DNA of 64,000 bases from an uncultured Eubacteriales bacterium (GCA_900316415.1 ONCV01000012.1:1-64000); one strand, 5' to 3'. Counted from the stretch's first letter, positions 57,886-64,000 are shown. Numbers and translations are program-made. The notes: generated by a model from the sequence alone, not told the origin.

Positions 57886-58803
57886 ATGGCTAAGTACTCT
57901 GCCATTAAACGGCGGACATTTGAGATTATCAGCAAGGCTGAAAGCGGCGATCGCGCCAGTTCCATTTTTGACTGGTCCATCATGGCCTTGATCGCCCTGA
58001 GTATTCTTACCATTATTCTGGACTCTTTCCAAAACATACATGAGAGATACCAGACTCTTTTTCAGACGTTTGAGGTTATTACCGTCATCGTTTTTACAAT
58101 AGAGTATATTCTTCGTATCTGGACTGCGGATCTGCTGTATCCAGATGCAAAGCATCCAAGGTTGAAATACTGCTTCTCCTTCATGGCAATTGTAGATCTT
58201 CTGGCCATACTGCCTTTTTATCTTCCATTCTTCTCAGCAGATCTCCGATTCCTTCGAATGATGCGTCTTTTCAGACTTTTTAGGCTGTTGCGCGTTCTTA
58301 AACTGGGCAGGTATTTGGATGCCCTCCAGGTCATTGTAAAGGTTATCCGAACGTCAGGGCCGCAGCTAATCATGTCAGTGGTGATTTGCTTTTTCGTGAT
58401 GCTCTTTTCGGCGATCATCATGTATGAAGTTGAGAACCCTGTTCAGCCGGAACAGTTTCCCAATGTGCTGTCTTCTTTGTGGTGGGCTATATGTACCCTC
58501 ACAACTGTCGGTTATGGTGATGTTTATCCTATAACGGCTGTCGGCAGATTCTTTGCCTCAATCATTAGTCTGGTGGGCATTGGAATCATTGCCATCCCCA
58601 CCGGTATTATTGCCGCCGGATTCAATCAGGTAATAAACAAAGAACAGGACAAAGATGCAGTAGAAACAATGAATGATGATGAGCTTCTTGCCCTGCAGGG
58701 GAAAGTGATCAAACAGTTGTCAGAACGAGGATATTCTCTTGTTATTGGTAAACCAACGGAACCAGATGAGAAAGAGGGTAAAGGATCCGATAGTCATACG
58801 TAG
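57886..58803 (+). CDS. voltage-gated potassium channel
   Basis: 305 residues, six membrane helices. S4 is RFLRMMRLFRLFRLLRVLKLGR (residues 121-142) with Arg every third position; the pore filter TTVGYGD lies at 206-212, followed by S6 (ISLVGIGIIAIPTGIIAAGF) and a short cytoplasmic tail. A Kv-type tetrameric K+ channel, similar in plan to KvAP-like bacterial channels. GTGAGG site upstream. It belongs to the AT-rich region. Confidence 0.93.
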   Translation: MAKYSAIKRRTFEIISKAESGDRASSIFDWSIMALIALSILTIILDSFQNIHERYQTLFQTFEVITVIVFTIEYILRIWTADLLYPDAKHPRLKYCFSFMAIVDLLAILPFYLPFFSADLRFLRMMRLFRLFRLLRVLKLGRYLDALQVIVKVIRTSGPQLIMSVVICFFVMLFSAIIMYEVENPVQPEQFPNVLSSLWWAICTLTTVGYGDVYPITAVGRFFASIISLVGIGIIAIPTGIIAAGFNQVINKEQDKDAVETMNDDELLALQGKVIKQLSERGYSLVIGKPTEPDEKEGKGSDSHT

Positions 58804-58838
58804 AATTAGGATGCGCATATTTAAAGGAGATGAGTACT

Positions 58839-59942
58839 TTGGCTACAAAACTTCGTACGAGAACTATTCTATGGGCAATTCTGCTTCTTCTAACCCTAAG
58901 TTTATGTTTAAATCCAGCACAGGCTGAAGAATCGTTCGCTTTAAATCTTACGATAAACTTTCATGGTAATCTCATTTTTTCCAGGTATAATGCTAAAATG
59001 AAGTTGGATAATGAACTGATAACTATAATCCAACACGGGGGCAAGTACATTGACTCGTTGACAGTAACTGCTGGGAAGCATACTCTGGCATTCTATAAAG
59101 AAGACAACGATAAGGTAAACGGACAAATAGAGATCGATGTAAAAGGAACGAGCTTTTTTTCCTGTACGATATCTGCAACAAGGTCTGCTATAAATATTTC
59201 TGATGTAGATTTCAGATCAGCTGAACCAGAGAATGAGAAAGAATTGAAGGAAAGGGCAGTTACTGATGCAGATTACAGTATGGTCGTACCGGAGGAAAAG
59301 AAAGGAAATGAGGATATAGTTATTACGTATGAAGATGCGCCATACTTAAAAGGGAGAGGCTACATTGATGTGATAGGAGCAGAACCATATTACGTAGGGA
59401 TTTATGGATATGTTGTGACTGGCCCTTATGATGGAATGAATGAGAATCATGAGTATAATATTACACCATGGCAGGTCAACAAATATGCTAAAATCGACGG
59501 AAATTGGGTAGAAGATGGAAAGATTAATCATAAGACAAAAGTAGCGGTTGTGTCTCAGGAGCTTGAAAAAAAGAACGGAAAAGAGTATCAAGGCTATCTT
59601 GAGGTCATTGAGATTGATTCGGGAAATAGGGAATATATAAAGGTAAGTAATTTTTGCACATCGGAGTACTGGAAGGAAAGTATGAATAAAATCAACGAAA
59701 AAGGTTATTGCATCGCCGCTTATTCTAAGAAAAGCAGTTTCGACCCAATAAATCAGAAGAACAAAGCAGTTAAGATAAAAAACAAAACGCGTGTTCTGAT
59801 TCCGATGAAAGGTACATTCTATGTTAGTTCACCTGATGTGATCAACCATTCAGTTCCGGGTATTGTTCCAATAGAAAAAGATGGAAACCAGGTTTACGAT
59901 TTTGTTTTTTTCAACAGCGGTGATTTGAATGTAGAGTATTAG
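58839..59942 (+). CDS. secreted protein of unknown function
   Basis: About 367 residues. TTG 58839 is nine bases after AAAGGAG and starts a signal peptide (ATKLRTRTILWAILLLLTLSLCLNPAQA); ATG 58830 abuts the ribosome site and is less likely. The first 100 residues (LNLTINFHGNLIFSRYNAKMKLDNELITIIQHGGKYIDSLTVTAGKHTLAFYKE) look like a small beta-sandwich of PEGA type; the rest is beta-rich, with two repeats mentioning KVAVVSQELEKKNG and KTRVLIPMKGTFYV. I do not recognise a family. It precedes the Hxs-like cluster by 26 bp and may be a partner. Confidence 0.62.
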   Translation: MATKLRTRTILWAILLLLTLSLCLNPAQAEESFALNLTINFHGNLIFSRYNAKMKLDNELITIIQHGGKYIDSLTVTAGKHTLAFYKEDNDKVNGQIEIDVKGTSFFSCTISATRSAINISDVDFRSAEPENEKELKERAVTDADYSMVVPEEKKGNEDIVITYEDAPYLKGRGYIDVIGAEPYYVGIYGYVVTGPYDGMNENHEYNITPWQVNKYAKIDGNWVEDGKINHKTKVAVVSQELEKKNGKEYQGYLEVIEIDSGNREYIKVSNFCTSEYWKESMNKINEKGYCIAAYSKKSSFDPINQKNKAVKIKNKTRVLIPMKGTFYVSSPDVINHSVPGIVPIEKDGNQVYDFVFFNSGDLNVEY

Positions 59943-59968
59943 AAATAGAAAGCAGGAGAAAAAAGGAA

Positions 59969-60352
59969 ATGATAAAGAAGTTAATGGTGGATAAAGGCAT
60001 ATATTCAAAAGATGTTCTCCTGAAGACAGCATTCAGTTTTACGGAAAGAGCGTATATTCATCTGGAGCAGAATAACGAGTATTGGGTTATTCAATGGACG
60101 AATAAGGAAGATGAAGATATTAATCCACTCGAATTTGAGAATGAATTGATTGCGCAGCAGATAAGAGAGAGACTGTTAGTTATCAATTCCGATATACGAA
60201 AAATAGTTCTTGCAAGAGCTTATGCTTCTTCGGTGATTGAATTAGCAGACGAAAAAACAAATGGAAATAAGATAGATGCAATAGACGACGGGAAACAATC
60301 ATTAGAAACCATGGATTCAGAAAAAATACTGAAAGGGTGGTTTGATGAATGA
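59969..60352 (+). CDS. hxsD: HxsD-like protein of a His-Xaa-Ser radical-SAM system
   Basis: 127 residues, cytoplasmic. IYSKDVLLKTAFSFTERAYIHLEQ, VIQWTNKEDEDINPLEFENELIAQQIRERLL and DIRKIVLARAYASSVI match my recollection of the HxsD pattern (Y...A.lKt...ft...yi.l ... EF.NEL..Q.lR ... ir..i...A). HxsD is a small protein of unknown function always near the two radical SAM enzymes HxsB and HxsC; it may act like a peptide-recognition element. Clean GGAG site, stop overlaps the next start (ATGA). The C-terminal 35 residues are extra. Confidence 0.72.
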   Translation: MIKKLMVDKGIYSKDVLLKTAFSFTERAYIHLEQNNEYWVIQWTNKEDEDINPLEFENELIAQQIRERLLVINSDIRKIVLARAYASSVIELADEKTNGNKIDAIDDGKQSLETMDSEKILKGWFDE

Positions 60353-60561
60353 ATATATGTTTTGACCTGGATATTTATTCTGAGGAAGCAGTTTCTAAAG
60401 CGATTAAGGATTATCAGGATATTGCAGTGATCAGCACCAGAAAAGAAGGGGAGCAGATGGAATGCGTTTTTCGCTCTTGTGCGGATCATTTTCCGGAGCA
60501 ATTGGTTATTCACGAGTTCTCAAACTACGTATTGAATTTAACTGTTTCTGGTAAAGAATGA
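60349..60561 (+). CDS. small second HxsD-like protein
   Basis: 70 residues. LDIYSEEAVSKAIKDYQDIAVISTRKEGEQMECVF followed by LVIHEFSNYVLNLTVSGKE mirrors the fold order of the previous gene (IYS..A...; EF.N.....), but without the C-terminal helix. Overlaps its neighbours on both sides by four bases. Function unknown; probable paralogue or partner of HxsD. Confidence 0.55.
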   Translation: MNICFDLDIYSEEAVSKAIKDYQDIAVISTRKEGEQMECVFRSCADHFPEQLVIHEFSNYVLNLTVSGKE

Positions 60562-61583
60562 GGATTATAACAATGAATTGCTTTGAAGTACTTATGCTAA
60601 TCCTTATGCTTGCATTGGGAGCATACTGTTCATATACTGATTTCATTTGCGGGAAGGTAAGCAATAAAGTACTTATTGGTGGCTTTTCTGCGGGACTCAT
60701 TCTTCACGTATGTCTGTTGTTTTCTGGAATGTTGCCTTATTATCGAACATGGATTATCAACATGCTGGTAGCAGATTTTATCTCGATAGGTATGTACTAT
60801 CTTGATATCTGGGCAGCAGGAGATTCAAAGCTGTTCATGGCCTTATACTTTTTGGTTCCACCAAGACTATTGGATGCTGGGCCTTTATCATACAGCATCA
60901 TGCCATTTCTTTTTATCTTTTCACTTGCATTACTTTGGACGATGTGTGATACTACTTTTCGTCTTCTCAGACGAGAAGCGCATAAGAAACAGACATTTGA
61001 GGTAAAAACCTTTTTACTCAATTATGCAAGAAACATGATTGAAGTGACCGGATTCTATTCAGTGTGTTATGCTGTGATTCCGGACAAAATGAATACGCAG
61101 CCGCTTTTTGCATCCGTGCTGCTTTTTTTGTATGTATATTTCTGTTCTCATGTACCATTGATGAAGAAATGGTATATTGTGGTAATTCATCTCGGCGTAG
61201 CTATCGCGTTAGGTATAGTACAACATAGACTTCCGGAATTGCCGTCCATATGGAACATAGTAATTATCGCTGCAGTAATCATAATTCAAAAGTATTGTTC
61301 AATGTATAACTATCAACTGATCAGGACATCAGAAGCAAAAGAAGGCATTATTCCCGCTATGGAAACTGTAATGAGTTTTCAGAAATCAAGAGTTCATTCG
61401 TTGCCGGCAGATCCGTCAGAAAAAATGACGGCGAGGATTACATGTGAGCAGGCGGCAGCCATTAGAAGATGGGAAAAGTCTGCCACAGGAAAACCGGAGA
61501 TCTGGATTGTTAGGAAAGTACCATTTGCAGTTATGATATTGATGGGGTTTATATTCTGGATGTCTATTCGAATTGGGGGGTGA
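60558..61583 (+). CDS. A24-family prepilin-type peptidase with extended C-terminus
   Basis: 341 residues, about seven to eight membrane helices. Catalytic Asp residues are D28 (YTDF...VSN) and D89 (WAAGDSKLF, the GxGD-type motif); the usual N-terminal methylase domain is absent. After the last core helix lies a cytoplasmic segment of about 70 residues (ARITCEQAAAIRRWEKSATGKPEIWIVRK) and a final helix. Such enzymes cleave pilin-like leaders at the membrane; no pilin genes are visible, and the gene is embedded in an Hxs-like cluster, so processing of the modified product is a plausible role. ATG 60573 after TGAGG is an alternative start. Confidence 0.78.
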   Translation: MRIITMNCFEVLMLILMLALGAYCSYTDFICGKVSNKVLIGGFSAGLILHVCLLFSGMLPYYRTWIINMLVADFISIGMYYLDIWAAGDSKLFMALYFLVPPRLLDAGPLSYSIMPFLFIFSLALLWTMCDTTFRLLRREAHKKQTFEVKTFLLNYARNMIEVTGFYSVCYAVIPDKMNTQPLFASVLLFLYVYFCSHVPLMKKWYIVVIHLGVAIALGIVQHRLPELPSIWNIVIIAAVIIIQKYCSMYNYQLIRTSEAKEGIIPAMETVMSFQKSRVHSLPADPSEKMTARITCEQAAAIRRWEKSATGKPEIWIVRKVPFAVMILMGFIFWMSIRIGG

Positions 61584-61589
61584 AGACAT

Positions 61590-62468
61590 ATGCCAGGAGT
61601 ATTATTCGAGCCAGATGATGTTTGCCTGTATGTTACAGAAAAGTGCAATTCGAATTGTATCATGTGCCCGATGAGCCTGCACTCGAGACAGCGGGGACTT
61701 TCCCTCGGTGATGATGAATGGAATAACATTCTGGGATTCCTTCCTGAGCATACAAAACATATAACAATTACTGGCGGTGAACCATTTCTGGTGTATGATC
61801 GGATCATTCCAGTGATGAAGGAAATTAGTACAAGATGTCCAGAAGCGGAAATACTTGTGTTGACTAATGGAAGAGCTCTGGCGGTAGATAGAGTTTTTGA
61901 ACAGCTTAAATCAAGCATTACTGAGAAGTTTCGTTTTGCCATCCCACTTCATGCATCGACAGAAGAGCTACATGACAGAATAACACAATCTCCCGGAAGT
62001 TTTCAGCAAACTATTCTTGGAATAAAACGTTTAAAAGAAACGAAGGCAAAAATCGAGATCAGAATTGTTGGCCATCGTTTGAATCTGCATGATATTAGTG
62101 AACTGTTTACAATGATTGCGTTGACGGACATAAAGCCGGATATTATCAATTTGATCGCTATGGAGATGACCGGATGCGCAGGCAGAAACAGAGACGAACT
62201 ATGGGTGGATTATAACTTGTTAGCTGAGAATGCCCGGAGAGGTATTCAATATGCGATAGAAAAGGGTATAGACGTTGGACTATACAACTTTCCATTATGT
62301 ATGCTCCCGGAAGGAATGTGGCCGCTTGCCAAGTCGAGCATAACAACTTCCAAAATACGCTATTATCAAGCCTGCGAAGATTGTAATGTCCGAGATGTAT
62401 GCGGTGGATTGTTTTACTCGACTTATGAATTGGGCCTTTGTAAAGTGAATCCGTTCAGGAGGCAATAA
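61590..62468 (+). CDS. hxsC: HxsC-like radical SAM enzyme
   Basis: 292 residues. C19, C23, C26 (EKCNSNCIMC) bind the SAM [4Fe-4S] cluster, TITGGEPFL is the GGE motif, and FPLCMLPEG ... YYQACEDCNVRDVCGGLFYSTYELG is the Cys-rich C-terminus expected for HxsC. HxsB and HxsC occur as a pair and are presumed to modify a His-Xaa-Ser repeat protein. Six bp after the A24 peptidase gene and 3 bp before hxsB. Confidence 0.8.
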   Translation: MPGVLFEPDDVCLYVTEKCNSNCIMCPMSLHSRQRGLSLGDDEWNNILGFLPEHTKHITITGGEPFLVYDRIIPVMKEISTRCPEAEILVLTNGRALAVDRVFEQLKSSITEKFRFAIPLHASTEELHDRITQSPGSFQQTILGIKRLKETKAKIEIRIVGHRLNLHDISELFTMIALTDIKPDIINLIAMEMTGCAGRNRDELWVDYNLLAENARRGIQYAIEKGIDVGLYNFPLCMLPEGMWPLAKSSITTSKIRYYQACEDCNVRDVCGGLFYSTYELGLCKVNPFRRQ

Positions 62469-62471
62469 ATC

Positions 62472-63857
62472 ATGTTGGGATTCTTTTATTATTCGAAGTT
62501 TCAGGATAAGTATTTGCTTACCAACGACGCAGGGAGATTTGCTTTTCTCAGTGAAGTAGAGTTTGGCCGGTTGATCAACTTGTCTCTTTCAGAAGATACA
62601 CCGATCTATCAGGAACTCGAAGAAAAGGGCTTTGTGTATTCATGCTCAAAGGAAGAATATATCAGAGATCATATTCATTTGATCAGAGACAACAACAGGT
62701 ATCTGTTCAGCGGAACAAATCTTTTTATTATTGCGGTTACAAATGCATGCAATAATCGTTGCGTATATTGCCAAGCGAACGGACTGGCAAATGCAAGGAA
62801 TATGGACAAAGAAGTTGCTGAACAGGCACTACAAAGAATCAGCGAATGTTCAGCAGAAGAAATCACTATCGAATTCCAGGGCGGCGAGCCGCTGCTTAAT
62901 TTTCCTATCATCCGGTATTTCGTTGAGAGAGCCAGAATAATAATGCCCCATAAAACCGTTCAATTTGCAATTGTTTCCAATTTAGGCTTGTTAAATGATG
63001 AAATTATAGACTTCCTGAAGGAAAATAGGATCAGTATTTCCACATCGCTCGATGGTCCGGTGGAGCTTCATGATTCTAACCGGCCAGACAGTCAGGGAAA
63101 TGGAACTTATGACAATACGGTCAATGGAAGAAAACGCCTTGCGTATAAGGGAATAGTTTGCGGTGCTATTCAAACAACCACCAGAAAATCGCTTACCCGT
63201 GCTAAAGAAATCGTGAGAGAATATGTTGAAAGAGGATATGAGTATATATTTCTTAGACCATTATCCAGATTAGGTGCGGCAGCAAGGAACTGGGATTTGA
63301 TTGGATACAGTGCAGAAGAATATCTGGTTTTTTATCGACGGGCTTTGCAAGAGATCATAGAGGTAAATAGAGAAGGGAAAAAGCTTAAGGAATACTATGC
63401 TTCTATTTTTCTTTCCAAAATGTTTAATTCCCGTGGAGTAAACTATATGGAACTGCGATCTCCGTGTGGAGCGGGACTTGGGCAAGTAGCCATTACTGCA
63501 AATGGAAATGTATATACCTGTGATGAAGGCAGAATGATGGCGGAAGCAGGAGATGAGTCTTTTTTGATCGGAAATGTTTTCAAAGACAGCTATAGTCAAT
63601 GGATTCAGTCTTCCGGGTGTCAGGCGGTATGTTCTGCTTCTCTATTGGATACACTTCCCGGCTGTTGCGATTGTGTATTTAAACCATATTGTGGAGTCTG
63701 TCCGGTGGTCAATTATGCTCTGCATGGGAATATTTCGCATGTCAACCCGGAAAAATGTAAAATCAATAAAGGAATAATGTCCATATTGCTTGAATATATT
63801 ACAGAAGGCGATCCTTTTATACTAGATTTATTCATGAGATGGGGTGAAGAGGCATGA
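62472..63857 (+). CDS. hxsB: HxsB-like radical SAM/SPASM maturase
   Basis: 461 residues. An N-terminal winged-helix-like part (residues 1-70; NDAGRFAFLSEVEFGRLI...LEEKGFVY) is likely the peptide-recognition element. C93, C97, C100 (NACNNRCVYC) hold the SAM cluster; EFQGGEPLLNF is the GGE motif. SPCGAGLGQVAITANGNVYTCDEGRMM and the Cys-rich CCDCVFKPYCGVCPVVN region form the SPASM domain with auxiliary clusters. This agrees well with the HxsB family. The stop overlaps the next start by four bases. Confidence 0.83.
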   Translation: MLGFFYYSKFQDKYLLTNDAGRFAFLSEVEFGRLINLSLSEDTPIYQELEEKGFVYSCSKEEYIRDHIHLIRDNNRYLFSGTNLFIIAVTNACNNRCVYCQANGLANARNMDKEVAEQALQRISECSAEEITIEFQGGEPLLNFPIIRYFVERARIIMPHKTVQFAIVSNLGLLNDEIIDFLKENRISISTSLDGPVELHDSNRPDSQGNGTYDNTVNGRKRLAYKGIVCGAIQTTTRKSLTRAKEIVREYVERGYEYIFLRPLSRLGAAARNWDLIGYSAEEYLVFYRRALQEIIEVNREGKKLKEYYASIFLSKMFNSRGVNYMELRSPCGAGLGQVAITANGNVYTCDEGRMMAEAGDESFLIGNVFKDSYSQWIQSSGCQAVCSASLLDTLPGCCDCVFKPYCGVCPVVNYALHGNISHVNPEKCKINKGIMSILLEYITEGDPFILDLFMRWGEEA

Positions 63858-64000
63858 GACCATTTGCTGATCAGAAAAGATTACTCGCAAGCGCTTTGGC
63901 GATGATGATTGTTGTTTGCTGCCTTTCTTTCACAAGTGTTCCATTAGTTGCTAACGCCGAAAACACGAATCCTATTACAGAGGGAGCTTTGAAATATAGT
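63854..64000 (+). CDS. secreted protein, truncated by the window edge (candidate Hxs substrate)
   Basis: 49 residues visible: a basic start (RPFADQKRLLAS), a signal-peptide core (ALAMMIVVCCLSFTSVPLVANA) and the start of a mature chain (ENTNPITEG). ATGA overlap with hxsB puts it in the cluster, in the place where the His-Xaa-Ser repeat substrate HxsA might be found; no His-Xaa-Ser repeat is visible yet because the gene runs off the end. Confidence 0.6.
   Translation, partial: MRPFADQKRLLASALAMMIVVCCLSFTSVPLVANAENTNPITEGALKYS

Follow-up and report, generated by a model that had tools for sequence, protein, structure and literature searches.

We describe a gene cluster at the end of a 64,000-nucleotide stretch of DNA from an uncultured Eubacteriales bacterium (GCA_900316415.1, ONCV01000012.1:1-64000, referred to in what follows as the window) in which a membrane peptidase of the A24 family is encoded among the genes of a His-Xaa-Ser (Hxs) peptide-modification system. 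Our preferred reading, which draws on sequence comparison and to which we give a probability of roughly 0.65, is that the cluster is an HxsA3-type Hxs system with a dedicated leader peptidase, the A24 protein, that would cut the leader of HxsA3/HxsA4 substrates at the membrane. Whether the proposal extends to HxsA3/HxsA4 systems of several phyla, with a GxGD-type aspartyl membrane peptidase devoted to these systems cleaving off the leader behind EEE[G/A] on the cytosolic face of the membrane, we judge to be an even bet. The evidence comes from the window, which makes up bases 1-64000 of a 108-kb contig in a gut-type Clostridia genome that is 97% complete, from the remainder of that contig, and from 80 loci obtained by scanning a genome collection with an HxsB alignment and annotated by home-made profiles.

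The genes hxsD, hxsD-like, A24, hxsC and hxsB form a single tight run (59969-63857), with 4-base overlaps or gaps of 3-6 bases between neighbors, and are followed by a MORN-repeat gene and the substrate gene:

59969..60352, + strand: hxsD, 127 amino acids (aa); TIGR03976 68 bits (cut-off 50); predicted model with a local distance difference test score (pLDDT) of 84.7
60349..60561, + strand: hxsD-like gene, 70 aa; NF038315 65.8 bits (cut-off 41); 4-base overlap with hxsD
60558..61583, + strand: Hxs-type A24 (GxGD-like) aspartyl membrane peptidase, 341 aa; 4-base overlap with hxsD-like
61590..62468, + strand: hxsC, radical S-adenosylmethionine (SAM) maturase, 292 aa; TIGR03977 271.5 bits (cut-off 267.9); PF04055; gap of 6 after A24
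62472..63857, + strand: hxsB, radical SAM/SPASM maturase, 461 aa; TIGR03978 480.2 bits (cut-off 370); PF04055; gap of 3 after hxsC
63854..64930 in contig numbering (the window holds 63854..64000), + strand: MORN-repeat secreted protein, 358 aa; 4-base overlap with hxsB
64942-65712 of the contig (L005:10943-11713), ∼940 bases past the window end: hxsA3, substrate; NF038309 113.8 bits (cut-off 65)

A first-pass annotation, made by a model from the window sequence, had recognized an Hxs cluster here, and the profile searches bear this out, with HxsB, HxsC and HxsD all passing the cut-offs of their TIGRFAM models, HxsC only barely; we consider membership in the Hxs family of systems to be almost certain. 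Both maturases contain PF04055, as expected for the two radical SAM enzymes then reported, but the SPASM domain ascribed to both is detected in HxsB alone, and there slightly below the Pfam cut-off (20.1 vs 21.5). The close packing also holds from 59969 onward, but not for the secreted gene that had been counted as the first member of the run, which starts at 58830 rather than 58839, lies 26 bases from hxsD and is not conserved. The secreted product listed at 63854 is the MORN-repeat protein and not the substrate; the latter emerged when the contig was extended past 64000 in search of His-Xaa-Ser repeats. It is encoded by hxsA3, the second gene 3' of hxsB, and contains (HxSH)n repeats, e.g., HRSHSSHRSHSS.

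Placement of the third gene in family A24, also made at first pass, stands. The window protein itself scores 20.6 bits against PF01478, below the cut-off of 26.5, and 21.4 against the archaeal C-terminal family PF06847, and it matches no NCBIfam family, but relatives exceed the PF01478 cut-off (29.0 bits at locus L029, and several others). A few Hxs A24s (G070, L079, L084) gave no match to PF01478, and absence of A24 is to be understood relative to that model. All 57 Hxs A24 sequences compared have D28, N36, G88, D89, K91 and P101, of which D28 and D89 (in the context A-A-G-D-S-K) are the candidate catalytic aspartates. The predicted structure (pLDDT 94.9, predicted template modeling score 0.89) has a single plausible match in the PDB, the A24 peptidase FlaK (3s0x_B), with a probability of 0.84, a root-mean-square deviation of 4.0 over 139 columns and an E-value of 1.2; solved structures searched by sequence with the A24 profile gave no match. 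With FlaK, PibD, EppA and PilD the Hxs enzymes share the two invariant Asp residues and the G-D-x-K motif; their likeness to the family in PF01478 and PF06847 scores is weak, and the structural match to FlaK is a plausible one. They differ in constituting a subfamily of their own with additional helices and a conserved C-terminal domain, in having no methyltransferase domain match, and in their likely substrate, a radical-SAM-modified repeat protein rather than a pilin.

HxsB is rare near the window organism, occurring in 2 of 100 genomes of the family and, in the samples of the order and the class, in 1 of 297 and 4 of 391 genomes, respectively. Exactly three of the 391 class genomes score at least 480 bits with the Hxs A24 profile, every one of them with HxsB (three of the four HxsB genomes), and the other A24s in this sample reach at most ∼28 bits. 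In a tree that includes generic A24s of the same genomes the Hxs A24s form one group with no generic members, albeit with modest support (0.635). The co-occurrence of A24 with hxsBC in other genomes, to which the first-pass annotation had pointed as a check, proved widespread, related genomes included. In nearly all clostridial loci the gene order is [M S] D (d) A24 C B [M S], where M denotes MORN, S substrate and d the HxsD-like gene, and in nearly every one A24 lies between hxsD or hxsD-like and hxsC, mostly overlapping its neighbors or within ∼20 bases of them. Carriers include Faecalibacterium prausnitzii, Blautia, Butyrivibrio, Anaerostipes, Agathobaculum, Clostridium drakei and C. beijerinckii HUN142, and further Mitsuokella multacida and one Synergistales genome. 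That the A24 protein is a dedicated part of the Hxs system is, in our view, very probable. What seemed to be an A24-HxsC fusion gene in L052 was discarded, since a masked run of Ns had produced it.

Some loci depart from this layout. C. beijerinckii HUN142 (L065) has two MORN-HxsA3 pairs 5' of hxsD, and the Synergistales locus (L085) two copies of HxsA3. Two class-level HxsB loci are without A24, L072, where HxsB has no hxsD or hxsC neighbors, and L015. The latter (G399:C1:3763000-3779000) has HxsD/B/C-type genes beside a pair of ∼100-aa Nif11-like leader peptides (tails such as YHSNDSYHSNDSHHNS), together with M16-like peptidases, and would be an Hxs variant with different, Nif11-type-looking candidate substrates.

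In FlaK and the bacterial prepilin peptidases both Asp residues face the cytosol, and cleavage follows a Gly beside a hydrophobic segment (PMC4307647, PMC4985597, PMC4471445), and class III leaders are 6-26 aa in length, end in Gly and are cleaved cytosolically (PMC4471445). HxsA3 begins with a hydrophilic leader, most often of 20-26 residues (typically ∼22), of the form FPxIKKSIxDFLYEEE[G/A], followed by N-[IV]-[TSP]-R-[NSG]-K and then by a hydrophobic segment of ∼17 residues, and so resembles prepilin-peptidase substrates in topology, leader length and the G/A at its end. This -1 residue is G, with A in two lineages (L063, L085), and the hydrophobic segment has a nearly invariant G at +11. 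The first His comes ∼28-29 residues past the leader G/A, just after an AxA-like site ([AV]-F-A) in 52 of 54 HxsA3 proteins, and the HxSHxS repeats of most members have no Cys. Among HxsA4 proteins the shared motif is EEG or EDG. An archaellin-like R-G cut site, TRG|K, is present in the window HxsA3 but is not general, N, S or G being found there, and was kept as a weak alternative only.

Leader and A24 occur together in more than 60 loci, and nine leader-less loci have no A24 in the stretch covered; a Fisher test (62/0 vs 0/9) gives p ∼1e-11, a value that overstates independence since the loci are related. For the leader-bearing L074, L082, L087 and L095 the sequence stretch stops before A24 could be seen or excluded. 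Eight plasmid-borne loci (of HxsA/HxsA2 type where named) from Proteobacteria, Nostoc and Hymenobacter have neither A24 nor a separate HxsD-like gene, and their substrates are without the EE[G/A] leader. Classical HxsA/HxsA2-D-B-C cassettes such as that of the Aeromonas salmonicida plasmid (L145) share hxsD, hxsB, hxsC and an HxSH-repeat substrate with the window system, but in addition to the missing A24 and HxsD-like genes they have an ordinary N-terminal signal in place of the leader. An HxsB-like radical SAM gene also seems common on conjugative plasmids: 314 Klebsiella plasmid records match HxsB at less than 60% identity, in most cases along less than 80% of the protein.

Outside the Firmicutes A24 appeared at one point to be lacking. 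This was seen only with 10-kb stretches and was rejected, for in four loci (L071/G782, L083/G790, L089/G794 and L091/G796) an Hxs-type A24 lies 20-31 kb further along the contig, on the same strand. Long runs in these Patescibacteria and Omnitrophota (G782:C56, G790:C3, G794:C15, G796:C5) start with Hxs genes and end in A24; they are mostly co-directional, include up to ∼12 radical SAM genes and in some cases carbamoyltransferase-like or sugar-transfer-like genes, and apparently represent a far larger modification pathway. In the Omnitrophota loci L079 and L084 and in the metagenome-assembled genome locus L094 the A24 gene is in the same run, after additional radical SAM genes. Those candidate-phylum substrates that were tested match HxsA4 (NF038313). 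The Patescibacterial Hxs island (L071:7644-8480, G782:C56 flanks) lies within a type IV pilus region, with PilD prepilin peptidase and pilin genes upstream and prepilin-like genes after A24.

The steps that we envisage are as follows. HxsB and HxsC, aided by HxsD and the HxsD-like protein, would modify, in the cytosol, the His-Xaa-Ser repeats of an HxsA3 precursor that still has its leader, and this precursor would insert in the membrane via its hydrophobic segment. The A24 enzyme, whose active site faces the cytosol in known members, would then remove the leader just ahead of this segment, most likely after EEE[G/A], and signal peptidase I may cleave at the AxA site to liberate the repeat domain on the outer side. 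We consider it likely that HxsA3 is the substrate of A24; the placement of the cut after EEE[G/A] is more tentative, at slightly less than even odds.

Several observations weigh against this proposal. The enzyme has A-A-G-D in place of a strict GxGD motif (the first position is A in 46, G in 7 and S in 4 of the 57 sequences, with the second G and the D invariant), and the structural match to FlaK is weak as judged by its E-value. A pilin-type signal has basic residues at -2/-3, Gly at -1, a hydrophobic residue at +1 and Glu at +5; HxsA3 has [DE]E[ED] before the G/A and mostly N, S or T after it, with a spacer of six mostly polar residues between the G and the hydrophobic segment. Because of the acidic -2/-3 positions, the polar +1 residue and this spacer we refrain from classing the HxsA3 leader with class III signal peptides. 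The conserved EE[G/A] may instead be a recognition site for HxsB/HxsD, and the AxA-like site suggests that signal peptidase I alone could be sufficient for release. While the Hxs A24 is the sole PF01478 match in the window genome, and likewise in ∼8 other carriers, all without N_methyl pilins, its status as the only A24 in the genome is provisional since PF01478 misses some Hxs A24s. Finally, the modified product is still, as suggested at first pass, the most likely target of A24, but the case for cleavage of HxsA3 is one of conservation and elimination.

It is also conceivable, though unlikely, that the enzyme performs a clean-up like that of signal peptide peptidases. Signal peptidase I would cut first, at the AxA site, and A24 would clip the leftover leader-plus-membrane fragment in the membrane or at its edge, clearing it or freeing a leader fragment. 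The conservation of the AxA-like site and of the G at +11 within the hydrophobic segment would fit such a role, as would the grouping of A24 enzymes with GxGD intramembrane proteases (PMC4985597), but known A24 members cleave at the cytosolic edge beside a Gly and classical Hxs systems with ordinary signal peptides manage without A24. In an improbable alternative, A24 cleaves another protein of the cluster, MORN, or is not a protease at all but a scaffold that holds the maturase complex at the membrane. MORN genes are present in many clostridial Hxs loci but missing from many A24 loci, and no common motif that might mark a cleavage site was apparent in the sample of MORN N-termini that was viewed; a scaffold could account for the well-conserved extra C-terminal domain, but invariance of both catalytic Asp residues would be unexpected in a pure scaffold.

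The window genome contains a minimal cluster of PilC, small pilin-like and PilT genes (L142, G000:C25:16000-32000) and no other detectable A24, which might imply that the peptidase processes pilin-like proteins encoded elsewhere and that its position among the Hxs genes is incidental. Yet four same-genus genomes (96-99% complete) have a T2SSE (PilT-like) ATPase of the same score class with neither A24 nor HxsB, and clusters of the L142 type therefore seem not to need A24, which came with Hxs; a role for A24 in serving PilT/PilC was rejected on this basis. No N_methyl pilin is found in the window genome, 9 of 11 single-A24 genomes are without them, and Patescibacterium L071 has a true PilD, with an N-terminal methylase domain, as well as an Hxs A24, which argues for separate jobs. 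With an A24 subfamily that tracks HxsB and not pilus genes, we regard the pilin explanation as very improbable.

The preferred reading, a dedicated A24 leader peptidase, can be set beside what has been described. The window system is like the HxsA3 (NF038309) and HxsA4 (NF038313) types of NCBIfam in that its core genes pass the models and its substrate is an HxsA3 with HxSH repeats, but NCBIfam lists no A24 model for the system. In the epipeptide system EpeX/EpeE/EpeP the peptide is likewise modified by a radical SAM enzyme. Processing is by a co-encoded membrane-embedded protease, EpeP (PMC10885120), an M50 metalloprotease in contrast to the A24 aspartyl protease of Hxs. EpeP is also the nearest analogue in a review of leader proteases for ribosomally synthesized and post-translationally modified peptides (RiPPs), from which the terms aspartyl, aspartic, prepilin and A24 are absent (PMC10885120). 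No paper joining Hxs with an A24 peptidase was found in the open-access literature searched, which covered the first account of Hxs, by Haft and Basu (cited in PMC9062424), only in part. Should the proposal be correct, a ribosomal peptide pathway would for the first time have an aspartyl (A24) leader peptidase, and prepilin-peptidase chemistry would be at work outside type IV filaments, extending A24 from pilus biogenesis to modified-peptide maturation. Hxs systems are widespread, cultured gut genera such as Faecalibacterium, Blautia, Butyrivibrio and Anaerostipes included, and a conserved, dedicated protease would supply the missing processing step and predict the start of the mature product. 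Mutants of the catalytic Asp residues would provide a handle with which to trap the modified precursor and solve the Hxs chemistry.

The pair of HxsD-like genes noted at first pass is confirmed, in that the 70-aa protein matches an existing NCBIfam family (NF038315) and is homologous to HxsD (hhalign probability 96.8%); judged from this homology, it is a shortened HxsD paralogue. The predicted fold of HxsD is beta-alpha-beta-beta-long-alpha, with weak ACT/ferredoxin/KH-like entries as the best PDB matches, and a role as a PqqD-like (winged-helix) RiPP recognition element was rejected since the fold does not fit.

Two further genes flank the conserved set:

58830-59942: secreted 370-aa protein, upstream, 26 bases from hxsD, outside the conserved set
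65721-66611 of the contig (L005:11722-12612): HtrA-like protease, directly after hxsA3

Homologues of the secreted 370-aa gene are found in just two other Hxs loci, and a scan for promoters and terminators gave sites no more frequent than in shuffles. The HtrA-like serine protease is a possible second processing enzyme; it is also present in five close relatives (L016, L017, L018, L019 and L034, 57-64% identity). Just upstream of the cluster, at 57886-58803, lies a voltage-gated ion-channel gene, a ∼74%-identical copy of which is found near the Hxs loci of L016 and L018.

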